64,000 bases of DNA from contig JAFCMP010000062.1 of the NCBI GenBank assembly GCA_017506865.1, forward strand, positions 124,001-188,000, read 5' to 3'. How positions within the stretch are numbered: position 1 is the first letter of the stretch; each line of letters opens with the position of its first letter. Under the pieces are notes generated by a model. The model ran no database searches. It was not told the DNA's origin and was given only the letters and a program-made list of their open reading frames with translations. This DNA comes from Tribonema minus (lineage: Eukaryota > Sar > Xanthophyceae > Tribonematales > Tribonemataceae). Below are positions 3,796-43,295 of the stretch, one piece after another. The position numbers were made by a program, and so were the translations under genes.

Positions 3796-4420
3796 AAGGG
3801 GAATGCGGCCGCAGGGGGGCGTCCCCCTGACTGATTGGCCTGTCAAGCAGCAACGGGCGAAGTATCAAGAATTAGGGATCGAAGGTAGTTCTCGTAGTAA
3901 CAAGCCTGGGGGGCAAGAAGGGAAATGCGGCTGCGGGCGGGCGTCCCCCTGTCTGATTGGCCTGGCAAGCAGAAATTTGCAAAGAGTGTGCTTTAGAAAT
4001 GGAGGGAGTCATGAAATTCTTGAAGTCAATGGAGGGATTGACAACACTTATTGCAGTAAGAAACCTGGAGGGGACAGAAGGGGAATGCAGATGCGGGGGG
4101 GGCGCCCTCCTGTTTGATTGAACTGGCAAGCAGCAACGGGCGAGGTACCAAGAATTTAAGGGTTTGAAGCTACTTCTTGAAGTAATTGAAGTAAAAAGCC
4201 TCGAGGGGGAGAAGGGGTATGCGACTGCAGAAGGACCCCATTGTCTGATTGACCTGTCAAGCAGCACTTTGCAAAGCGTGTGCTTATATGAGAATGGAGG
4301 GATAAAAGGCAGTTTTAAAAGTAAGGAGCCTGGAGGGGAGCAGAAAGGGAATGAGACTGCAGAAGGACCCGACTGTCTGATTGGCCTAGCAAGCAGTGAT
4401 GTGCTTGTATGGAGGAACTG
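3796..4420. repeat. Five-copy tandem repeat, about 120-160 bp units
   Basis: A unit with core 'GGGAATGCGGCTGC ... CTGATTGGCCTGTCAAGCAG' begins near 3798, 3920, 4080, 4212 and 4347. Between cores lie GAAGTA-rich spacers. A long minus-strand open frame crosses the array, but its residues simply follow the repeat (RPIRQ.GPSAV... each time) and it shows no domain. I treat it as a minisatellite-like array. Confidence 0.7.
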
Positions 4421-5389: not shown

Positions 5390-5915
5390 CTTGAAGATGG
5401 CGGTGACTCACCGAGAACGCTCTGTTGGAGGCCAGCAGCGTGGGCGCCTGCTTGCGTGGCGACGCAAACAATATCTCACAACTTCAATTCAAACTTTGTG
5501 TCATAGCATTGACTCACCGAGAACGTTAGCCAGCGGTGTGGACCCGCGCTTGCACTGCGACGTAAAACCGACTCACAACTTCAACCCATGCTTCAAATCT
5601 TGACGTTGACTCACCGAGAAGGGTCTGTCGGTGGCCAGCGGCGTGGGCACCCGCTTTCGCGGTGATCCGAACGGAAAACCTCTTTTTTTAAGAGGGGACA
5701 AGTAACAACTTCGAGTTGTGACGTTGACTCACCGAGAACGGTCTGTTGTTGGTGGCCAGCGGCGTGGGCGCTTGTTTGTGCGGCGACGCAGGCATGTCTC
5801 ACAACTTCAATACAAACCTCAAGTGCAAACCAAACTTCAACAGTGGTGACTCACCGAGAACGGTCTGTTGTTAGTCGCCAGCGGCGTGGGCGCCTGCTTG
5901 CGCGGCGACGCTGTC
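5390..5915 (-). repeat. Tandem array of five microexon-like units
   Basis: On the minus strand a unit of about 110-120 bp is repeated five times. Its core is AG/GCGCCCACG...TTCTCG/GTGAGTC, an exon-like segment bounded by an acceptor-like (C)AAG(C)AG and a canonical donor. Cores start near 5915, 5790, 5660, 5560 and 5450. Core lengths are about 39, 38, 36, 26 and 36 nt; the fourth lacks an AG acceptor. One frame reads APTPLATNNRPFS, VPTPLATDRPFS and APTLLASNRAFS in different copies. The donor is the best-preserved part. I cannot link the units to a flanking gene in phase; they may lie in a 3' extension of the gene at 7394-13579 or be orphan duplicates. Confidence 0.5.
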
Positions 5916-5929
5916 ATCCACGGGTCCAG

Positions 5930-6665
5930 CATCACGTCCTGGGAGTCGGAGCGGTGCTGGCGCGGTGTGGGGCCGGCGCCGCCGGCAGCAGCAGCAGCAG
6001 CCTGAGGCGCGATGGCATACAAACGACAGCGCTCAGTATCACAACAGCGGCCTGAGGCGTGATGGCACGCAAACCAACAGCAGTGCTCAGCATCGTGTTT
6101 GCAGAGGCGGAGCGGTGCTGGCGCGGGGTGGGGCCGGCGCCGCCGGCAGCAGCAGCAGCTTGAGGCGCGATGGAGCACAAACAAACAGCAGTGCTCAGCA
6201 TCACATCCTAGGGGGTGGAGCGGTGCTGATGTGGGGTGGGGGCGGCAGCACCCTGAGGCGTGTTGGAGCGCGAGCAAAAAGCAGTGCTCAGCATGATGTC
6301 GTTAAAGTCGGAGCGTTGCTGGCGCGGGGCGGGGCTGGCGCCGGCGGCAGCGACAGCCTGCGGCGCGATGCAATGCAAACCACAACGCTCAGCATCACAG
6401 CAGTCTGAGGCGTGATCGAGTGCAAACAAACACCAGTGGTCAGCATCGTGTTTGCAGAGTTGGGGGCGCGGTGCTGGCGCGGGGTGGGGCCGGCGCCGCC
6501 AGCAGCAGCGGCCTGAGGCGTGATGGCATAGAAACAAGCAGCAGCGCTCAGCATCACATCCTAGGAATTGTAGTCACATTCTGGGAACTGGAGCGGTGCT
6601 GGTGTGGGGTGAGGTCAGCAGCAGCAGCAGCAGAAGCAGCAGCAACAACAGCAGCCTGGAACGCA
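5930..6665. repeat. GC-rich minisatellite, about 100-bp units
   Basis: Five to six imperfect copies of a unit with core GGAGCGGTGCTGGCGCGGGG then GGCCGGCGCCGCCGGCAGC(AGC)n, CTGAGGCGNGATGG and CAGCGCTCAGCAT. Frames on both strands stay open because the unit is GC-rich and lacks stops; on the minus strand they read Ala/Gly-rich PTPRQHRS repeats. No splice donors occur in the units. I call it repeat DNA rather than coding. Confidence 0.65.
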
Positions 6666-7393: not shown

Positions 7394-10300
7394 TTACGCT
7401 GCTGTTGCGCCTGCTGCCAGCGCCCCCCCCGCCCGCGCCCACAGGCGACCCATGCGCCCCCCCCCCTCCCCCCCCCCGCCCGCCGCCACACCCCCAATAG
7501 CGCCCGCAGCAGCCGCAGCAGGCTGTGCGCGCGCCGACATCGGCCGCGCCAGCGCCCTCCCCGAGTCCCCGCCAGACCACTTCGGCTGCTGCTGCTGCTG
7601 CTGCGCTGCTGCCGCCGCTGCTGCGGGCGCAGCGGTGACGTGCGGCGGCCGCAGCGGCCCCGCGAGCGCCGCCGCCGCCAGCGCCGCCGCCGCCGCCAGC
7701 GCCTCCGAGTGCTGCGCGCCGCCGCCGCCGCCCGACCGCTGCTGCTGCTGCTGCTGCGCGTGGAACTGAGCGCTGCTGCTGCTGCCGGTGACGCCGTAGT
7801 CGGCGCTGGTGCGGCGGCTGCTCGCGTTCGAGTGAGGCGCCGCCGCCGCCGCCGCGCGCGCGCTGCCGCCACCCCTGCCGCCGACTCCCGCCGCCGCTGC
7901 CGCTGCCGCCGCCGCCGCCGCGCCCCCCGTGAGGCCCCCCCCTGCCATATGCTGAGCGCTGCTGCTGCTCACACCAGGCTGCGCCGCCAACTGGGGACTT
8001 GTGCGCGGGCTGCCGTTGGCGCGCGCGCCGCCGCTGCCGCCGCCGCGGCCGCTGCCGCCGTGAGTGGAGCCAGCGTGAGAGCCGGCGTGCGAGCTGACGG
8101 AGTGGGGCCCCGCAGCGTGGCCGTGGGGGTATTCGTACGCGGGGTAGGTATGCGTGGCAGCTACGTCGCTGGGCTCCGGCACCCACTGCTGCGGCGGCGC
8201 CTGCCGCTGCTGCTGCCGCGGCGGGTGCGCGGCGGCGTGCTGCTGCGGCTGCTGCTGCGGCGGCGCAGTGTGAGGGTGGTAGGCGGCGGCGGCAGCGGCG
8301 TAGGGCGCGTCCTGCTCGTGCTGCAGCTGCGGCGGCGGCGCGCCATGCTGCTGAGCACTGTGGTGGTGGTGCTGCTGCTGCTGCGGCGGCGGCGGCGGCG
8401 CCGTGTGGTACGTGTCGAAGGACGCCTGCTCGCCGCCGTGTTGCGGGTACTGAGCGCTGTCTTCGTCGTAGTACTGCGCGTGCGAGAAAGCGAGCAGTGT
8501 GCTCATGACACCAGCTGAAGTAAAGCTCAAGTTGAAGAAACTTACCTTGAAGTGTAGCTGCGTGCGTCTGGATGCCTGCTTGTCAAGCACGGTGCTGCGG
8601 GTACTGAGCACTGCCTGCATCGTAGTGCTACGCGCTCAGGAGCAATGGGGGGTAGGTTGCAGCGTAAAGCTCAAGTTGAAGTAGGGTCTCTGAAGCGGTA
8701 CAAGAGTGGGTCATGCACGCAGCAGTCACTGTGCCTCAAGAGGAAATTATGTACATGCGTGGCAGTTAAGTAGACAAAAAACTGCGATGCAGTAATGCCA
8801 AAACACCTCAAGGTTCCATTTGGACTTACCCCGAGACTGACGATGACTGCCAGGGAAAAGATTGCAAGTTGTGGCAAGAACTGCTGCTGCTGGTGGTCGC
8901 CATTGCAGACTGCCACCAGGCCTATACTTTAAGATGAGCCAATGTCAACCAAAGGAATGTTAGCACATACCTGCAGGTGCTGCTGTTGGTCAACATCGTC
9001 GCTGTACAGCGGCTGCTGCTGCTGTTGGTGATGCTCATCCTGTTCGACACCACTCCACATGCCACCTGCCAAGGAAGCACAGCATACCATAGCGAAGTAG
9101 CATTGCACAGCGTTGGCCGCAAGCATGATTGCCGCAGCGGGGCAGCGCCTTTGTCAACAGCTAGGGCAGTGGCTATGCAATCATGAGATGCGTATTGAGG
9201 TGAACTCAAGCATACACAGTGCATAATTCTTACGCGTTGTTGTATGCCATCACGCTTATATGGTGTTCACGTGTCGAGACGTACGAGTATCGTACATGCT
9301 TGAATATACTGCTCAGAATGACTTCAAACGCAGCTGTTCCTACACGTGAGCATTCCATAATTCATGATTAGGATTTTCGGTGGGTGAGAGTCCCATGAGA
9401 CAATGTGGAGATGTAAGCAATGTGGCACCATTAATTGTATCAATAAACATATGCTAAACAGTAAACGATGCGGTACATACTTCGAAGTATATGATATGGC
9501 ACAGCACGCAATGCTGTCCCGTTCCTATTGCCGTTGCTGCATGTGCTGCTGACCATGCCCACTGGTGGCCTTCTCAAGACCTGATCTGACAGGCAATGCT
9601 ACGGTATGATCAGCAAACCACCGACGTATATCATGACTGCGCTTCCAGCTTCTCTGTCCATGTGTGCCAACTCTTACCCTAACCCCAAGTTGACCGTCGC
9701 CATGCAACGCGCGTGAGGCAATGGTGTATTGTGATCATTGCGTCGCATAAGGATGTGGGTGCCGCTTGTACTGATCATCACCCTTCTCAGGTCCTTCTGT
9801 ATCCTGCCTGCCTTTGCAGGTCGCATGCCGTGTGGTACAAGTCCCTGGGTGCCCCTTACTCATGATCATAATCCATACAAACATAACATTGTTCAGCAAT
9901 ATATGTGTAATAACAAAACTTTACCGCCATGCGCTTCTTCAACTGTAGTCACCTGGGGGTCCCTCGTCTCCATACGACGCCTCCTCGCCATACCCCCCCT
10001 GCCCCTGCTGCAGCTGCTGCTCATACGCCTGCCCATACCCCCCCTGCTGCCCATCCAACGCCTCATCATAATACCCCTCCTGCTGCTCCTGCTGCTGCTG
10101 CTGCACCGCCATCTGCTCACCGCCGTAATACTGCAACTGCTCCCCGCCCCCCTGATCCCCCCCCTGCCCCTCATCATAGTACCCCTGGTACCCCCCCTGT
10201 TGGCTGTCGTCATACATACCAACCCCCTCTTGCGGGGCCCATTCCCCCTCCCCCCCGCCGCCATTCCCCGCTACTTCGTCCGTGTAGCCGTACCCTGCCC

Positions 10301-13300
10301 CCTGGGCATCGTATGCGCCCCCCTGTCCCCCTGCGTAACCGTCGTGTAACTGCTGCTGCTGCTGCGCGTATGCGTCATGATCGCCTGGTAGCGAGGGGGG
10401 CATGTAGGTATGTAGCACAGTGTCATCAGCATCCGCGCGATACTTCAGGCACTTGCAGTAAGAAATGACGCCTGATACGAATCTGTTCATATGACCTGTT
10501 TGAAGCTGCTGATGTCTTTGCGTCAGCGTACAGCGCCTGCGTCAGGCGGATGATATGTTTAGATGCAAAGCCACGCAAAGCAGGAGCATCAATGCCAATA
10601 CACCAACAGGACCTTATCTGGGTCTGTTTCCAGCAGGCACACTGCTGTGTACAGCAAGGCTTCGGTGGTATGAAACCGCCAGCACAGCACGAACACTGCG
10701 GTGAAAGTGCATGACATGCAACCAGCACCTGTGCTCAATAATGTGCATTGTGTCAGTTCGTGTCAGTGCTCAGCGCTGGCTGCGAATGAGCCGCCACGAC
10801 AGATGACGCATGTCACATGATGAAAATACACAGTGCTGCAATGCTCAGCGTAACTGCTAGTAACTGTCAGTACTGCCAGCGATGCACAGCTCTGTCAGTG
10901 TTCAGCACTGGCTGCCAATGAGCCGCCACTGACTGATGAAGCATGTCACATAATGAAAGTACACGATGCTGCATGCTCAGCGTAACCGCTAGTAACTGCC
11001 AGTAACTGCCAGCGCCGCACAGCTCACCTGCACCATCAGCGAGAATGGATCCCTGGTGATACTGCAGGTCGCTGGGCTGGCGCTTATAGTACTGCTGATG
11101 TAAACTCACACTGTTGCATGCTCAGCATAACTGCCAGCAACTGTCAGTAACTGCCAGCGCCGCACAGCTCACCTGCGCCGTCCGCAAGGATGGATCCCTG
11201 GTGGTGGTACTGCAGGTCACTGGGCTGGCGCTCATAGTACTGCTGATGTAAATTCACACTGTTGCATGCTCAGCGTAACTGCTAGTAACTGCCAGTAACT
11301 GCCAGCGACGCATGGCTCACCTGCGCCGTCAGCGAGGATGAATCCTTGGTGATACTGCAGGTCGCTGGGCTGGCGCTCATAGTACTGCTGATGTAAATAC
11401 ACTTGTCGCATGCTCAGCGTAACTGCCAGTAACTGTCAGTAACTGCCAGCTCACCTGCGCCGTCAGCGAGGATGGATCCTTGGTGATACTGCAGGTCGCT
11501 GGGCTGGCGATCGTAGTACTGCTGAGGCGCGGGGGCAACAGAGAGAGATCACAGTGAGCAGATAGCAACTCCTGCGTGCCGTGTAGTGTCGTTGTGCACA
11601 ATCGACGATTGCTTGGTTGAAGTTTGGCAGTGATCGCGCACGGCGCGCGGTTAGGGGCGAGCAACGCCTGCGATGAGCTTCTCTTTGTTGTGCGGTCAGC
11701 AATCATGCGCTAGAGAACGGCATTTTGCTGCTACTGCTGCTGTATGAGAACAGCCAGAGGGAGCTCAATTGCGGCTAGCAATGTGGCGGGCTGCTGCTAC
11801 ACAAGGGGCAAAAAGCTGTCAGCAAGCGCTGGCTTGAGATTTGCATACAACGCTTTGGTACGAGCATACAGCAGTGGAGACACATGCATGTGATGCTGCG
11901 CCAGGCAGCCATAAAGAGATGCCCTCCTCTGCTACACCGTGGTCTGCAAGCTTGGCGACATCTGCTGCTCACAAGCATACCACAGATGGAACACTGTAGC
12001 TGCTAGCACCTCTGAGCACTGCTGCATCAGCACGCCAGCATGCAATCAGCGATCACATTTTGTCAATGGACACAGCGTTAGGGCTGGGGTTAGGGGTAGT
12101 CGCTGTGCGAGCGCACCACAGCGGAAGCAGATTGCCGCCAAAATTGGCCACAGGTCAGCAAAGAGATTGAACTTAGACAATCAGCGGTGTCGCAATCCCC
12201 CTGGCCAGTTGCATCCGGCATACTTCAACTGGGGGCAGGCCCTATGCAATTTGACTTCTCCTCCACAACTTCAACATGATCAGGATGAGGGGTTCACCGC
12301 GCACCTGCTGCTGATCGGGCTGTCCGTAACTGCCATCGTCATACGAAGCATCCTGCTGCACATCCTGCTGTGGCACCTCCTCCTGCTCCTCCTGCACAGG
12401 CTCCGGCGCAGGCGCAGCGGGTGTCCATACGCTGCCTGCGGCGAGACGATAGAAAAAGCCTCAGTCAATTGGTATGGACGTAAAGTGCGCGAGCATGCTT
12501 CAGTCAAGCAGTCCGTGCAGACATGCAGGTGATAGAAGGGCCAAACATGCGTCAGTTGATTAGTATGGACGTGAAGTGCGCTAGGATGCTTCAATCAGGC
12601 AGTCCGTGCACACCTGCACGTGATACAAGGGGGGGGATTGGACGAGCTCATGACCATGGCCAAGGGCGCACACTTGATGCTAGATGCATGTATTGAGGCG
12701 CTGCTGAGGACGATGTGCAGTGTGAGGATAAAGATGTTGAGAGCCACACCAGGCCGAGTGGCAATCACGTTGATGTACGGGTGCAGCAGCATTGTGCTTT
12801 CGGGCAAGAGGCAGGTACATTCTGCACAGCGGTGAGTGCTGTATGGCAACATATGCTGCTGACAGTCACACTTGAAACATGGACATTGAGCGAAGCATTC
12901 AGATTGCAATCAGACTACACACCTTTGGATTGGTGCATTAGCGACCTGCCTGCCGTGCAACGGATGTGAGCCTGATGGACGATTGCCACCTGACGCGATG
13001 GACGCCTAGGACATTTTGCAACAGCAATCTGCACAGCAAGATGAAAGCACACGACAGTTGCACCCTAGTGCGCAACTGTTGAATCTGCCTACATCATCAG
13101 TGTTGCATCACAATCGGGTGGCAAATGCCATAAAGTACCACCTGATGATTGTCGAACGGAACGCCTAAGAGGTACGCGCCAGACACAAGCTGCAATGTCA
13201 GATTTCAGTGCTCTAGTCACCTTTCCATTGCGGCTTAGTGGCCGTCTTCTTTTCCACTCCTCCCGTCATGTAAGGTCTTGGCCCCGGCTCACCATCCTGT

Positions 13301-13579
13301 GCAACACAACGTCACAACGTCGACAAGAGGCGTTTTTTGCAAAAGTCACCAGGTGAAAGCAGAGGAGTACTGAGCAAGGTGAGGTTCAGTTGGCGACAGG
13401 AATAAGTGCGCAGAAATCTGCGCGTTATCAAGGCCCGTTACGTCCATGTGACTGGCGTGGTGTCTGCTGGCACCCTTGACGCCTCATGAGGATCGCAGTC
13501 ACAGCAGCAATTCTGAAGTTACCTCGCGGCGAGGGGGGCTTGGCACACGGAAGTTGGTAGGTGGCGGCGGCAGTGCCAT
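7394..13579 (-). CDS. Gln/Ala/Gly-rich disordered protein with a four-way alternative exon
   Basis: Model, minus strand: exons 13579-13523, 13296-13221, 12435-12305, one of four copies (11521-11455, 11387-11321, 11242-11173, 11094-11028), 10384-9953, 9065-8971 and 8473-7394. All junction phases agree, and with one 67-nt copy the sum is 1938 nt, 646 codons with stop. The start ATG sits in a favourable AACATGG context. The N-terminus is Pro-rich (MALPPPPTNFRVP, then KPQWK/GSVWTPAAP), followed by an acidic Gln-rich stretch and the alternative exon (YYxRQPSDLQYHQG). A Gly/Tyr/Gln region and a 360-codon terminal exon of poly-Gln, His, poly-Ala and Gly/Ser blocks complete it. There are no folded domains, membrane segments or signal peptide. 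Such composition suits a scaffold, RNA-binding or condensate-forming protein, but function is unknown. The stop overlaps a GTAAGT (GCG TAA GT), so a further exon cannot be excluded. Introns 2, 4 and 6 are the longer ones. Confidence is high in exon structure and low in role. Confidence 0.72.
11028..11521 (-). other. Cluster of four mutually exclusive exon candidates
   Basis: Four tandem copies (A 11521-11455, B 11387-11321, C 11242-11173, D 11094-11028) each have a CAG acceptor and a GTGAGC donor. Lengths are 67, 67, 70 and 67 nt, all 1 mod 3; each enters in phase 0 and leaves in phase 1. The preceding exon ends in phase 0 and the following begins in phase 1, so one copy restores frame. Two copies in series read GCA GTA CTA then TGA (B or C second) or TAA (D second). 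Encoded variants differ mainly at one charged residue: YYD, YYE, YYE, YYK before RQPSDLQYH. C has an extra His and B has Phe for Ser. Introns between copies are only 67, 78 and 78 nt. Intron-only relics of the duplicated unit extend to about 10740. Confidence 0.65.
12436..13220. other. Intron 2 of the disordered-protein gene
   Basis: This 785-nt intron holds open frames of about 70-100 codons on both strands (for example 12620-12835 plus), but none has splice-consistent extensions or a recognisable motif. I see no independent gene in it. Near 12470-12600 there is a partial duplication (AATTGGTATGGACGTAAAGTGCG... / GATTAGTATGGACGTGAAGTGCG...). Confidence 0.4.
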
Positions 13580-22296: not shown

Positions 22297-25200
22297 AGGC
22301 AGCCGGCTCCTTCGCCCTGGGACTGGTGCTGCGCTGGGTCCTGGGGAAGGTTCTGGGGATAGTTCTGGGAAGCAGCACGGAGGCGATATTTACGCGCACT
22401 TTTGTCGCGGACGTTGAGGCTGCAAGGGGGTGCCTGGGGGGCGTGCTGGTGGGGGTGGCGCTGCACCTGTACGGCGCATGTGAGTGTACTTCAAATTGAA
22501 GTTCGACACGTGCTGTGTTCTTCATATTTATTTCAAGAGTGCCAGTGCTTGCATCTGTACGGCGCATGTGAGCGTACTTCACATTGACGTGTAACAAAAT
22601 ACCATGCTGTGGTCATTCGTATTTATGAAGTACGCCAGCGCCTTAAAGTATACTTTAAATGAAGTTCAGTAGCAGTAAACATGCTGCTGTCTTCTTCGTA
22701 TCTACTTCTATGAAGTATGCCAGTGCTTCACAGGTATTCACACATACTCCGCAAGTCACACTGCTGATGATGTGTTGGCGATGTCAATGCTCTATTAAAG
22801 TGGGGGCGGATCATATGTGCAGTCTATTGTCAAATGCGCCTCTGAGGTGCGTGTTGTAAGCATACCTGAAATTGTAGTGCTTTCTTATACTTGGTTTCTT
22901 CAAGTTTGTGGCACCTGTGATGTACTTCAAAGTGTCATGCAGTACACCTCATGAGTTGAGGTACTTAAAGTGAGTATGTTGCCGTGCATTGAGATATTGA
23001 CGTTTTGAGGTACTTCCAGAGTGAGTATGGTGTCGTGCATTGAGATATGGATGTTTTGAGGTACTTCTAAAGTGAGTATGGTGTCGTGCATTGAGATATT
23101 GATGTTTTGAGTCACGTGGCGCTGGCTCAGAGCTGAATTAGGTGTAGTATGGCATTTCGTGGCACGTGTGAGCATACCTCAAATGTATATATGCAGTACA
23201 TACTTCCTACATTGTCATCACCTGTATGCCGCGTGTGACTGTACTGCAAACGTATGAATAACCTGACAGCGCATAGCGCCAGCACCGTGCCAGATGTGGA
23301 CAACCAAGCAGCCAAGCAGACACAACTCACGAGAGCTTGTGTTGTTACAGAACGAAGTGACTGAGGAACACAATGCGAACCCTGTCTGAGGTGGCACGTC
23401 ACTTCCCACTAACCCAACCTCAACATGTGCTGAGCTCTGCTCGGTGAGTATAGTATATGTGCAGTGTATGTCATGTCCGTTGAACACCAATATCATGCTG
23501 TATTGGGACAGTTCAACTCTGTGTGTCGTGTGGCGCCGGCAGAGGCTGTGGCAGAAGTTGTGTAGTGTAGTTAGTACACTATGCACCTCAGTGGTGCGCG
23601 GGAGTGCACTTTGAGTTGAAGTATAGTGAGTTGCAACAAATGCTGTCGTGACGATGTTTGAAACTTGGCGTTTGATGTGTTGCCGGCTTGCGGCTGGAAA
23701 TCGACTTGTAGTTCCGCGCTTGAGGCCTTTGCACAGCGAGTGTGCTGGCTGTGCTGCTGCATTATCAGTATCGCCCCACAACCTCAACGTTAACACACAG
23801 GCAAAGGGCAGAATTACATAAAGCTGCAAGCGGCATGTCTGCTAGCTTGAAGACGACCATAAAGTGTGACCCTTAGGGTTAGGGTTTATGGTTAGGGTTA
23901 GGGTTATATTTTCCTGCGCATCAAATGAAGGGAGGTTGCCCGGTTGGCGCGGCGCTGCACTTGTATGGTGCATGTCAGGGTCACAGTTAGGGTGGCCTCA
24001 CCCTAATGCTAATGCTGATAACAATCCTAGCTCTTTCTTTGACGTCGTGAGTGTACCCAATCATGTTCCTCCGTGATTGAGTGTATTGGTGATGCTGATT
24101 AGAAATACTGGTAGGTGGTGCTCACAACAGGGTGTCTTTGGCAGGTGGTGAGCTTCGCATGAAAACGTCAAAGCATTGACCACCTTGAACTGCACTGATT
24201 TGCTCGTCGCACACAATACCACGGTATTATCTTTCTCTTCAAAATTATTGCAATGTCGGAGAAGTGCGCTGACTGATCCTAGCTGCAGATAAATTGCCAC
24301 CGCAATAACAGCGCATGCCTGCACTGAGGCGCACCGCAGCGACGTTTCATGAAACACCATGAGGTCAAGGGGCTGTTGATTTACTTGCACTTGCGGGTCG
24401 GCGCTTGTCGATGCAACGCGTCCTTTTTTTCACGACACTGCAGCTGGTGGGCTTATGCGCCCAAAACTGGTCGATACGTGCATTGTCTCAACTCGCAGGC
24501 CACTGGGTTTAGGGTTATGTTAGGGTTAGGGTGGGTTTAATGTTAGGGTTAGGGGTAGGTGTTGCAGCAACGCTCAGCACCATGGGCAACTGAATGTGCA
24601 CCATGAAATCACATCATTATGATAGTAGTGCGTTTGTATGTTGGCGGTCTGACTTATGTATGCCAACGCGCCATACCATCTGCACGCGCGCGCGCTATCT
24701 CGACTTGCAGGCCACTGGATGCCAGCAACAAAGCGCGTCGCAGTGACGCTGGGCGTTATGGGGCTGTGGCTAACGTCGGGCCGGGGGTCGCTGTACCTGT
24801 CTGCGATTCTGGGTTAGTACCACAATCTTCAAAGTTGAAGTGCATTGATGGTGGTGATGGAGGTCACATACCATACGTTACAGCACCCAATTGTTCCCAG
24901 CGCTGCATTCCCTTATCTGTCTGCAATTCTGGGTCAGTTCCACAATACTTCGAAAGTGCGTCGATGGTTGTGATAGAGGTCACGCACACCATATGTCACA
25001 GCACCGGAGTGTCAGCAATTGTGCATCCCGTGCCTGTGTCATTGACGGAGCTCATGCTTCGGCACAAATGCTAAGCTAGCAGCGCACGTACGTTACACTC
25101 AGTGTGGAGCATATGCAGCACACCTTGGTTCTTCTCAAAAAGTAAATCTGCAACGGTCACAACAACACAGCGCACTGGTTGCGCTGATGTCACATTGCAC

Positions 25201-29953: not shown

Positions 29954-31753
29954 CTAATCTCCGCCAGGCGCAGCTTGCGCGGGAGGACCGTTCTCGGAAG
30001 CGCCTTCCGCGGCCTGCGCCTGAGCCTGCGCATACCATGCTGAGCGTTGTTGCTCACGTTGACGCGCCTCGCGCCCTGCAATGAATCTGTCGTGGCAGCA
30101 GCAGCAATGAACAAGACAGAGCAGCATTCAATTAACAACAGTCAATTAACTACGGGGCATAACCAAGAGCGTGTACGCTACCGGAGTGATGTACTTTGAA
30201 TAACTTCAAGGCATGCAACTTTAAGTACTTGAGAAGTGTACAAGGCGTTGAGGTATGCTCTGCTTCAAGTTGTGAGATGCTTTGAATGACTTTGGATGAC
30301 TTCAAATGAGGAGGCACAAAGACGTGTACGCAACATTGAAGTATGCCTCTCATGTGACAAAGCCGCACTGGCACATCACGTGCAGCAAACACACAAGCAG
30401 ATTGTTGATGGCCAGGTTTAATCGCGCTGACCATGTCAGCGTTCATGGCATGCATGGTGAGCTACACCATGGCCATATGTGGTATTCATTTGCAGCTGTC
30501 ATCACGAGCACATCTTCCCAGCAGTTGGCATTGAGGAGGTCACGATGCTCATTGTACTGATGATCACGGGCAGACGTTGGCTTTTTGATGAAATATCATG
30601 CTGCGTGCCACCTGAAAACGCGTGTCAGATCACCGCACACACACGCAAACTGGTTTATTGTGGAAGCATTGATTGTTGCTTCCTGGCACTTCTGATGTGA
30701 CAAGCAGTGCTACTTTGCGTTGCACGGCCTCTAACCCAAACCCTAACCCTAATCCTAAACCTAACCCTAACGATGCACAACTGGTCTGCTGCTGCTGCTC
30801 ACGCGTGAAGCTACAACTACCGTTCCAGTGTGGTGCTAGTGCTGCTGGCTTGCCAGTGCTGCAGACAAGTTCAACTTGTTGAAAACTGAGGCGCAGATGC
30901 ATACTAAATTTAAGAGGGTGATGGACATGCTGTGTCCTCATGAAGCCACCTCGTGCACCGCACAGCAGCCTTTGCGTGCCTGACTACAGCATCACATCAT
31001 GATGTTCCACTGTGAAAGCACACTTTTCACACTTTCAACGCAACAAAACTGGCAGTATCTGCCAGGCCTCATTGAAGCCCATTCACCTCTGCTGCAGTAT
31101 CTGCTGTGGTATCACGCCATGAGCAAGTCACGTCTAAGCACCTCAAACTAACTCAAGATTGCTCCAAAGCGGTGGTCATTCACAAACACATATGTCAAAA
31201 ACGCTCAAAACACTAGCACGAGTAAGTACAAGAAGTATCAATGCCTCATAAAACTCCACTCACCTGCCGCTGTAGTATCCGCTGTAGTACCACGCCATCA
31301 GCAAATCACGTTTAGGTACTTCGTACCAAAAACTTCAAGATTTCTACAAGTACAAAAGCCCTCACGACACAAGCAGGAGTACAAGAAGTACCCGTCACTA
31401 AACCCCACTCACCTGCCGCTGTAGTACCCGCTGTAGTACCACGCCATGAGCAAGTCTGCGAGCTCATCTTCATGCACAACCCCCGGCCCCCACCCCTGCC
31501 CCCCCCCCGCCCCCCCCCCCAGCAGCGCCGCAGGGTGCGGCAGCGGCGGCAGCGGCAGCTGCTGCTGCTGCTGCCACTGCCCATACGCAGCCCCCTGTGC
31601 CTCCTGTTGCGGCTGCTGAGGGTATTCCCAGTGCTGGGGGGCAGTGCCCCAGGCGCCAGGGGCGGTGGGGGGGGGGATGCTTGCGGGCGGCGCTTGCCAT
31701 TGCGGTTGCGGCGCCGCTGCGGGTGCGGTGACGCAGCAGCAGTGCTTGTGAGT
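29954..31753 (-). CDS. SMN: SMN-like protein, Pro/Gln-rich region plus YG box (3' part of gene)
   Basis: Minus-strand exon 31753-31413 (341 nt) encodes a Pro-rich then Gln-rich stretch (PPASIPPPTAPGAWGTAP; AYGQWQQQQQLPLPPLPHP), poly-Gly, then DELADLLMAWYYSGYYSG. It ends AG/GTGAGT in phase 2. Exon 30086-29954 starts in phase 2 after CCACGACAG. It completes YYSGYYSGRFIAGREARQ, continues with a Gln/Ala-rich helix and stops (TAG). The LLxxWYxSGYxxG pattern after a proline-rich region is the hallmark YG box of survival motor neuron protein, which drives self-association in the SMN complex for spliceosomal snRNP assembly. A Tudor domain (binds symmetric dimethyl-arginine in Sm tails) should lie upstream but was not found. 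An acidic exon at 33147-33397 may be the 5' part. The YG assignment is firm; completeness is not. Confidence 0.68.
31087..31320 (-). repeat. Two extra YG-box exon copies in the last SMN-like intron
   Basis: Copy 2 (about 31312-31264) reads RDLLMAWYYSGYYSG with an intact donor AG/GTGAGT; its likely acceptor (GTACGAAG) would enter in phase 1. Spliced after the main exon it would read AGT ACC TAA and terminate. Copy 3 (about 31134-31087) reads RDLLMA then TGA in place of Trp, with donor AG/GTGAAT. Flanking intron sequence (GTTTAGGTACTTCG / GTCTAAGCACCTCA) is duplicated too. The copies decay with distance from the true exon. Confidence 0.65.
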
Positions 31754-41400: not shown

Positions 41401-42947
41401 CCAACAGTCGTACCAGAATGTGCCCAAAGCAGCAAGGCTTCGTTGGTTCCAGTTGCTATTCCTGAGCATCGCACTCTTTGAGGTATCCAAGCAGTGTGCT
41501 ACAACCTGGTGGTGTCATGATAGCTTGTGGAAATTATGACTATTGGTGCGCGCAGCTTCTAATGCTCAGTATGTGACAGACACCGTGTCAGTGGCCGTCC
41601 ATGGCGTACGCACTCAGCTGGTAAGGCGAGAATCTGGATACAGTCATGTTGAGTGTTGTGCGCCATGCCAGTGGTTCCCCAGTGAATCTCTCAGCGATTT
41701 TGTGATGCTGCAGTCATGCCCGCCACATAACATGGAGATTTTGGGCTGTCAATCCATGCTTGGCCTTCCTGTGTACTCAGCTTGAACGCTTGCATCATGA
41801 ACAACTCAAAGAATGTGAGACTAGCGGATTCGATGCAACCTAGTGTTGCTTCAATTTTCAGCCTCACATTGTGCACCTTGTCTGCACTTTACAGGGATCG
41901 CCGCGCATTGTGCAAGTGAGAGCTGCAGCGCTCAACCACACCGCTCAAACTGCCGAGAAGCAGTCTCGACCCGCCCCCCCATCAACCAGACCAACAATGA
42001 CACAACAGGATGTCAACGACAGCACCGCTCAACACGTCCGCAATGGCTGCGGTAACAAAACAAGCGGCAGAACAAGTTGCAGCAGCTTTGATGACAGCAC
42101 TGCGGCCAGCGGTGGCACTGCGGAAACGGCCGCGTGCTCGCTGCGGGAGGGCGAGCCTGTTGCTGAGCGATGCCCTACACCTCCGGTATGTATGTATATA
42201 TGTTTGCATGTATGTTTGTATGTATGTACTTCTATTGTATGTATGTATGTATGTGCGTACGTACGTATGTATGTACTCCGAAGTATGTATGTATGTATGT
42301 ATGTATGTATATGCGTATGTACGCATGTATGCATGTATGTATGTATGTATGTGTGTGTGTATACATGTATGTACGTATGTATGCATGTATGCAGAAGTAT
42401 GTATATATGTATGTAGAAGTATGCATGTATGTATGCATGTATGTGTGCATGTACTCGACGTGCCGCTTGCAGGTTCAGCTTCATTACTATGCTTGCCGCT
42501 TGAGAGGGCCCTTTAGTGATATAGTGATATGGCAGCCAACTCAGTGTCACTGTACCGGATCTGCTGCATGAGCATGCCAAACTCCTGCAAGTCTGTACAC
42601 AGGAATTCATTGCTCTACACAGCAGAACATGCCTGCACTGAAGGATAACATTCCCGCATGTGCAGGCGGAAAATTGACGATCACCATGCTGCCCGAGCCA
42701 TGATTGGAAGCATCCTGTGGTGTTGTCGTTGCCACGCAAGTGTACCAGTGAGCTTGTTGTACTAGTGTAGGGTATATGCTGTGAGAAATCGTCAAACTCA
42801 CAGCTGATGGCATCACTCCATACTTTCATGCACATTGCCGTGGGTATGCCGGAGCCTCAGTCACTGTGCCACTTCAAGCACCCAAGAAGTCTGGGCATCA
42901 GCTACGTGCGCCTTAAGGGATTGAGCGATGCAGCTGACCCTCTGTAG
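35483..42947 (+). CDS. Novel protein with amidotransferase-like N-terminal region, ten exons
   Basis: Exons: 35483-35590, 35978-36157, 37071-37243, 38081-38234, 38799-38900, 39988-40580, 41012-41162, 41570-41620, 41895-42185, 42804-42947. All phases agree, total 1947 nt, 648 aa. The N-terminus MRVLLIDAFSSSPRGRESC is a Rossmann-like beta strand with loop. Then come LDMIIVDGD, LLPWMQCMRQ and CGKCLFAAGPG, whose order recalls class I glutamine amidotransferases with Cys110 at the nucleophile-elbow position. His/Glu partners are not evident, so activity is doubtful. The middle has GDLYQFAPGKQSWHL and VTAVIATKGTIVWSPSSW; the C-terminal half has VGVRFNLSHRSANYAPAV and ends GISYVRLKGLSDAADPL. Intron 6 starts GCAAGG (GC-AG type). 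In exon 6 the middle looks better in another frame between two G-runs. The family is unknown to me. A longer 5' end (35152-35285) is possible. Confidence 0.66.
37780..38055 (+). repeat. Four tandem copies of a 71-bp intronic unit
   Basis: The unit 'ACCAGTGGGCAACAGAGCAAAGATCAGCTGCATGCTTGCCAC(A)AAGTGAGTGCGACAGTTCTAATG' starts near 37782, 37851, 37922 and 37993, ending just before the acceptor of exon 38081. Each copy has a donor-like AAGTGAGTG and an acceptor-like GCGACAG, so it may offer decoy splice sites. Confidence 0.8.
38901..39200 (+). repeat. Duplicated donor-side intron segment
   Basis: 'CAGGTGAGGGATTGTGTACTTGTACTATTAATTGAAATTCTCACTTAGGGCGCGAAACAGCCCAGATGA' (from the exon 38799 donor) recurs as 'CAGGTTTGTGTACTTGGACTATTGATCAAAATTCTAGCTCAGGGCGCGGAAAAGCCCAGATGA' at about 39039. 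The duplication copied the intron 5' end. Confidence 0.65.
39600..39990 (+). repeat. Duplicated 3' splice-site segment before exon 39988
   Basis: A segment of about 160-175 bp ending 'CAACTGCACTTCTCATTGTCACGACAG/CCCGCAC' (about 39832) is repeated ending 'CAACTTATTATTGTCGCGACAG/GTGCGAC' (39987). Internal matches include TGCATCAACTTGACCGTGTGTAC / CGCATCAACACGACCGTGTGTAC and ACATCATTCACCGATCAACCC / ACATCATCCGCTGATCAACCC. Only the second acceptor is followed by an in-phase exon. Confidence 0.7.
40981..41011 (+). promoter_or_regulatory. GC-AG intron 3' end
   Basis: The acceptor CCCCCCATTCATCTGTGTACCTCAG precedes exon 41012. The matching 5' end at 40581 is GCAAGG after CCACAG. Phase 2 is kept (AG/G = Arg), giving SHRSANYAPAV. 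Confidence 0.5.
42186..42455 (+). repeat. GTAT tetranucleotide microsatellite at an intron 5' end
   Basis: About 270 bp of imperfect GTAT/GTATGC repeats, interrupted by CGTACGTAC and ACTTCGAAGTATGC-like pieces, begins exactly at the donor of exon 41895-42185 (CCG/GTATGTATG). Every unit contains GTATGT, a consensus donor, so the exact 5' splice site is ambiguous. Tyr/His-rich frames across the array are compositional. Confidence 0.85.
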
Positions 42948-43209: not shown

Positions 43210-43295
43210 ACATGCCGTGCTAACCCTAACCCTAACCGTAATCCTAACTCTAACTCTAATCCTAACCCTAACCCTAACCCTTACCCTAAGCCTAA
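43210..43295. repeat. Interstitial CCCTAA tract
   Basis: About 75 bp of CCCTAA with CTCTAA and CCGTAA variants, the longest such tract in the window. It lies between the end of the 35.5-42.9 kb gene and the next candidate exon. Confidence 0.8.

Follow-up and report, generated by a model that had tools for sequence, protein, structure and literature searches.

In arthropod Dscam-type mutually exclusive clusters, homologous exons lie in arrays from which one exon is meant to be used, with pairing between docking and selector RNA elements. The locus described here, in the xanthophycean alga Tribonema minus, likewise contains an array of homologous exons, but differs from Dscam-type clusters in that docking/selector pairing was not found among its introns and three of the four copies have poor acceptors.

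Mutually exclusive exons are already known in algae, since exons 4 and 5 of Volvox carteri cyn23 are used one at a time and their variants have been amplified by RT-PCR, according to the available part of that study (PMC4378016). Like the present locus, cyn23 has neighbouring alternative exons in an alga, and its 106 nt are also 1 mod 3 by our arithmetic. In the same portion of the text, cyn23 has two copies with 13 differing residues in a cyclophilin-related protein (PMC4378016), whereas the array here has four copies whose differences are confined to two residue positions and one inserted residue, and it probably belongs to another algal lineage. Brown algal ROCO genes also carry tandem exon copies, in the form of LRR exons for which dynamic duplication and alternative splicing have been reported (PMC11378527). 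As described in the sections available, those exons are 72-bp, phase-2 and frame-neutral and occur in varied combinations (PMC11378527), in contrast to the 67- or 70-nt exons found here, with which the frame is kept only singly. The present array does not group with the brown algal LRR/TPR arrays, its exons being 1 mod 3 and its joined protein having no Pfam match; its four copies, which keep the frame only one at a time, set it apart from both cyn23 and the ROCO exons. In the accessible part of a diatom transcriptome study, no mutually exclusive exons were detected, with limits that its authors state (PMC8307304), and the available portions of two other algal splicing papers hold general mentions only (PMC12702839, PMC7534427).

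The window analysed is the whole 64,000-nt stretch of contig JAFCMP010000062.1, and its minus strand carries four copies (A–D) of one small exon, each with CAG before it and GTGAGC after it. The initial annotation had described four tandem exons of 67, 67, 70 and 67 nt with these ends, and all four were confirmed at their positions. Adjacent homologous exons sharing flanking exons, one feature of a mutually exclusive cluster, are present in four copies. The features of the locus are given below in 5' to 3' order on the minus strand, with splice-site scores from models trained on 34 introns of this genome and, in brackets, how many of the 34 training sites score lower.

13523..13579, minus strand: predicted first coding exon, MALPPPPTNFRVPSPPRRE; open frame, phase 0 end; donor GAG/GTAACT 6.0 (4/34); codon score -0.30, within the intron range
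13221..13296, minus strand: predicted exon 2; ends in phase 1; acceptor 4.6 (5/34), donor 7.2 (8/34); codon score -0.21, within the intron range
12305..12435, minus strand: upstream flanking exon (exon 3); ends in phase 0; acceptor 11.2 (30/34), donor 10.3 (19/34); codon score 0.04
11522..12304, minus strand: intron before copy A, 783 nt; 3' end contains a pyrimidine-rich tract, with CTCAC at 33 nt from the AG
11455..11521, minus strand: exon copy A, QYYDRQPSDLQYHQGSILADGA, 67 nt; acceptor 6.1 (12/34), donor 12.2 (33/34); probable default exon
11388..11454, minus strand: A–B intron, 67 nt
11321..11387, minus strand: exon copy B, QYYERQPSDLQYHQGFILADGA, 67 nt; acceptor -5.1 (0/34), second AG 1.1 (0/34); donor 12.2
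11243..11320, minus strand: B–C intron, 78 nt; lacks a YTNAY motif at usable distance
11173..11242, minus strand: exon copy C, QYYERQPSDLQYHHQGSILADGA, 70 nt; acceptor -5.6 (0/34), second AG 1.9 (1/34)
11095..11172, minus strand: C–D intron, 78 nt
11028..11094, minus strand: exon copy D, QYYKRQPSDLQYHQGSILADGA, 67 nt; acceptor -3.4 (0/34), second AG 2.7 (3/34)
10385..11027, minus strand: intron after copy D, 643 nt; first part matched by the sequences upstream of B–D
10761..11025, minus strand: 132-bp intron-like repeat units without this exon; 2.0 copies by TRF, 88% matches
9953..10384, minus strand: downstream flanking exon; takes one base from the copy; acceptor 6.9 (15/34), donor 7.8 (8/34); unspliced read-through reaches a stop after 9941
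8971..9065, minus strand: predicted next exon; open frame
7394..8473, minus strand: predicted last exon of the 1938-nt frame; open frame with a TAA end; gene end uncertain

The gene model is a prediction in which the codon use of exons 1 and 2 is no better than that of intron, both scoring below the value of -0.13 that marks the 95th percentile among 452 windows of intron, while exon 3, the four copies and the exon at 10384–9953 lie above it. For the joined N-terminal protein, neither a Pfam family nor a PDB sequence came up at E ≤ 1, and four further open stretches of the region gave a single sub-threshold Pfam match (E = 0.1). Across the 158-Mb assembly of 554 contigs, no second array or gene site appeared among the best candidates scored, and outside the region itself these best candidates comprised three weak protein matches (E 0.15–6.2). 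An Rfam scan of the window returned no match at the gathering score. Besides, the beginning of the exon at 8473 is partly duplicated in tandem at 8614–8546 on the minus strand; this copy is 69 nt long with an open frame, a good acceptor (7.8) and donor (12.4), and could be a frame-neutral cassette exon.

All 16 subsets of the four copies were joined in silico, with the last exon read to 9941. The four single-copy joins are open and the other 12 subsets are closed, the join without any copy reaching a stop at codon 126 and every join with two or more copies reaching one at codon 114–115. The frame logic of the initial annotation is borne out: the upstream exon ends in phase 0, the downstream exon requires a single base from the copy, and the frame stays open with exactly one copy, breaks with none, and runs into an early stop with two, as it does with more than two. 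Its 1938-nt frame was reproduced with copy A, the only copy tested in this way, and ends at 7394. This rule requires no selection, because any duplicated exon of length 1 mod 3 shifts the frame if it is used twice or never, so that frame enforcement comes automatically with the duplication of such an exon.

The copies differ pairwise by 3–8 of 67 aligned bases, and none of the four has a stop or a frameshift in its own frame. The single charged site at which the variants had been said to differ does vary (Asp, Glu, Glu and Lys in A to D), but copy B also changes Ser to Phe and copy C has an added His. The whole codon gained by copy C, previously read as a sign of constraint, is indeed in frame; it repeats the neighbouring CAC, however, and a 3-nt gain is of ordinary slippage size.

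The introns used to train the splice models came from tubulin, actin and actin-like, ribosomal-protein and phosphatase genes, found with a spliced aligner from query proteins. A first alignment set gave 66 raw introns and a second 38 more, of which 34 were kept: introns of the first set had to come from one of nine well-aligned runs and show 8 or more residues matching around the junction, those of the second needed 11 or more, and duplicate loci and junctions matched on one side only were left out. Antenna genes contributed no introns, as all 10 loci aligned too poorly to the single land-plant protein used and were dropped. With a stricter set of 23 introns the ranking was the same, A above B–D.

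All four copy donors are near the top of the range, scoring above 33 of the 34 training donors, and the acceptor of A is ordinary. In contrast to the intact acceptors that the initial annotation had assigned to every copy, B, C and D resemble acceptors in their last bases only and lack the branch point and pyrimidine tract of A. Their first AGs score below all 34 true acceptors and fall at the 23rd–36th percentile of 838 unused AGs, while the second AG of the CAGCAG start, three bases further in, reaches the 67th–77th percentile of unused AGs in these copies. Where A has CTCAC as a branch-like motif, B and D have CTGAC 48–49 nt from the AG, which places it just 19 and 29 nt from the preceding donor, and no YTNAY motif lies at usable distance before C. 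The motif is a weak guide, since CTRAY occurs in the last 12–60 nt of just 12 of the 34 training introns. These features make efficient use of B–D appear unlikely.

The inter-copy introns, at 67, 78 and 78 nt, are shorter than the 95-nt minimum of the training introns, a small sample of 34. The proposal that such short introns could block splicing between adjacent copies is in keeping with this and with the branch-like motifs, which are either 19 or 29 nt from the donor or missing; splicing from copy to copy seems unlikely on these grounds. Incompatibility between U2 and U12 sites does not act as a barrier here, as all four copy donors read CAG/GTGAGC, like the donors of the training introns, when compared with the U12 donor motif. 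The single inverted repeat found (15 nt, 87%) joins the two flanking introns, none lies in the inter-copy introns, and duplexes between inter-copy and flanking introns (12304–11522 and 10760–10385) were no better than shuffles in energy, 14–52 of 100 shuffles being as low. After the pairing and U2/U12 comparisons, the candidate barriers would be the short introns and the reading frame. The splice-selected four-state protein of the initial annotation is partly supported: its frame logic is right, but the splice sites of B–D do not support a four-state choice and no pairing RNA element was found.

TRF describes the cluster region as a 148-bp array of 3.9 copies (10970–11525), which continues into the 132-bp array at 10761–11025. 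In B, C and D alike, the 57 nt that precede the CAG align with the intron downstream of D, with scores of 38.5, 43 and 33, and are unrelated to the upstream flank of A, against which 217, 113 and 87 of 300 shuffles were as good. Since the flanks of B–D match the intron downstream of D and not the flank of A, the duplicated unit had its start at the last (C)AG in the acceptor of A. By these alignments the unit took along the exon, its donor and no more of the acceptor than this (C)AG, and copied downstream intron precedes B, C and D. Over exon and intron together, A and B are the nearest pair and C and D the most distant, a pattern that fits growth of the array near its A end.

Tandem arrays with a period of at least 50 are frequent in this neighbourhood, the 64-kb window holding 11 of them and a 10-kb stretch of this contig, 4–14 kb past the window's left end, another 6. 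The remaining 212 kb of other loci, some of them overlapping, hold 12. Of the 18 arrays counted over all the other loci (222 kb), 6 belong to the 10-kb stretch just named and one was counted twice through overlap between loci, so that loci of conserved genes hold fewer. Self-comparison of the region uncovered more tandem duplications besides A–D: within 6640–5927 acceptor-like sites are repeated, with no donor that scores above 8, and within 5917–5398 a donor is repeated, with no acceptor above 6. The process that made the cluster thus ignores exon ends, and A–D are the array that by chance took in a whole exon.

With the inserted codon left out, the exon copies have undergone at least 12 changes, spread 1, 1 and 10 over codon positions 1, 2 and 3, of which 9 are synonymous and 3 are replacements. 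When the same kinds of change were placed at random, 3 or fewer replacements arose with P = 0.005 (same base), 0.012 (base and CpG state) or 0.003 (both strands), and comparison of all four copies with the adjoining intron gave P = 0.03 and 0.09. Besides the two changes that distinguish A, 2 of 10 are replacements (P = 0.003–0.008). The private changes of copy C comprise 4 synonymous, 0 replacement and one in-frame codon (P = 0.004–0.007, with C singled out post hoc among the four), those of copy D 3 synonymous and 1 replacement (P = 0.20–0.25), and those of C and D together 7 synonymous and 1 replacement (P = 0.003–0.005). Set against private changes in the adjoining intron, C and D together show 1 replacement against an expectation of 5.8 (P = 0.02 by Poisson and 0.08 by Fisher test), and the Poisson values are 0.12 for C alone and 0.13 for D alone.

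Overall divergence is about the same in exon and intron. In their own frames the copies have codon-use scores of 0.01 to 0.30, above the intron 95th percentile, a property that young copies would inherit. The coding constraint claimed in the initial annotation is thus moderately supported, more so with the mutational spectrum controlled (P = 0.003–0.012) than against the intron (0.02–0.09), and mainly through copy C. In our view this lends moderate weight to translation beyond copy A, most of it coming from the changes in C.

Putting these lines together, the splice-site anatomy favours A, while the substitution pattern indicates that C, and perhaps D, has not been free to change; on this basis we put at about even probability a fairly recent tandem duplication within a gene rich in repeats, with A as the default exon and C, perhaps D, as rare alternatives used one at a time. 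A segment of one complete exon, its donor and some 64–75 nt of downstream intron would have been duplicated in tandem, with its left breakpoint at the last (C)AG of the acceptor, such that B–D would have received the AG without the branch point and pyrimidine tract. Since A alone keeps both of these, we propose that it is spliced by default and joined to 10384. C, and perhaps D, may replace A rarely or under some conditions, possibly by way of the second AG in CAGCAG; mRNAs with zero or several copies would be truncated and presumably removed. The ordinary acceptor of A (6.1), the acceptors of B–D below all 34 true ones, the origin of the flanks of B–D, the abundance of arrays hereabouts and the constraint beyond A speak for this reading. 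On the other side, a weak acceptor does not forbid regulated use, the acceptor model is built on no more than 34 introns, and constraint on C and D, modest as it is, fits awkwardly with their poor acceptors.

The same observations can be read in other ways. If B, C and D were silent by-products of repeat expansion and A alone were spliced, their poor acceptors, the nearby duplications that cut exon-like stretches regardless of their ends (6640–5927 and 5917–5398) and the roughly equal divergence of exon and intron would all be expected, and the synonymous bias would be due to chance or to an ancestor of C or D that once adjoined the real acceptor. Against this stand the 10 of 12 exon changes at third positions, with spectrum-controlled P = 0.003–0.012, the whole codon gained by copy C and the intact frame of every copy, and we consider such silence possible but doubtful. 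A regulated four-way mutually exclusive cluster, in which each copy enters a sizeable share of the mRNA, very short introns block copy-to-copy splicing and four protein variants result, would account for the frame being kept by one copy at a time, the strong donors (each above 33 of 34), the inter-copy introns of 67–78 nt, which fall below the 95-nt minimum and whose branch-like motifs sit just 19 and 29 nt past the donor, and the purifying pattern on the copies. It is unlikely, given that the first AGs of B–D score below all 34 true acceptors and their second AGs reach only the 67th–77th percentile of 838 unused AGs, that the only inverted repeat joins the flanking introns and other pairing is no better than shuffles (14–52 of 100), and that the variants differ only slightly.

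A related reading, a working four-state cluster caught young in an alga that is probably of the chlorophyll a/c kind, with only the acceptor AG duplicated, one copy per mRNA ensured by short introns and frame, and purifying selection already acting on C and D, is likewise improbable in our judgement. Finally, the extra copies might serve as poison exons, inclusion of a second copy shifting the frame, introducing a stop and lowering gene output, as the stop at codon 114–115 in all joins with two or more copies would allow. We hold this to be very improbable, because the inter-copy introns seem too short for efficient splicing and such a role would not preserve the frame of copy C; a search for the UPF1 zinc-binding family matched neither here nor in any control and is hence uninformative on NMD.

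If C or D is used, the locus would present mutually exclusive splicing at its birth, and would offer a view of how copies made with neither branch point nor pyrimidine tract turn into usable exons, and of whether intron length and frame suffice to enforce single use in organisms other than animals. Should A be the only copy used, the locus would caution against calling tandem copies a switch on the strength of intact frames and GT-AG ends before their splice sites and selection have been tested.

Further repeats were observed on the minus strand of the window. An exon-like stretch at 6001–5855 has its 5' half, with a good acceptor, repeated upstream and its 3' half, with a donor, repeated downstream. 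Acceptor scores above 6 occur within 6640–5927 at 6512, 6357, 6252, 6051 and 6001, among others, and the donor TTCTCG/GTGAGTCA is repeated within 5917–5398 at 5855, 5733, 5615, 5518 and 5412, so that the two sets resemble arrays of alternative acceptors and donors flanking one exon. A tandem array of units of about 130 bp at 4404–3795 carries strong acceptor-like sites at 4329, 4064 and 3905 and has no donors above 8. Elsewhere in the window, telomere-like CCCTAA/TTAGGG inner arrays lie at 374–433, 23873–23906, 30731–30771 and 43220–43295, and a long GTAT microsatellite of about 67 units (73% matches) at 42186–42453. In the genome at large, the chlorophyll-binding family has 92 matches. Four antenna exons were compared with PDB sequences: a fucoxanthin protein is the best hit of one, and XLH5 is the best single-domain chain for another, at 125 bits against 92 for the runner-up among such chains, with the 9vfj LHCI chains ahead of it. 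The remaining two match multi-domain LHCI chains first, followed in one case by a light-harvesting chain and ACP/FCP chains and in the other by ACP chains with chlorophyll a/b chains little behind, and favour neither side. On the first two exons a green-algal host was rejected, and an alga of the red plastid lineage is probable. Phosphatase or antenna matches of identical score occur on both contigs of the pairs C152/C428, C70/C489 and C296/C490, as if haplotypes or recent duplicates had been kept separate in the assembly.
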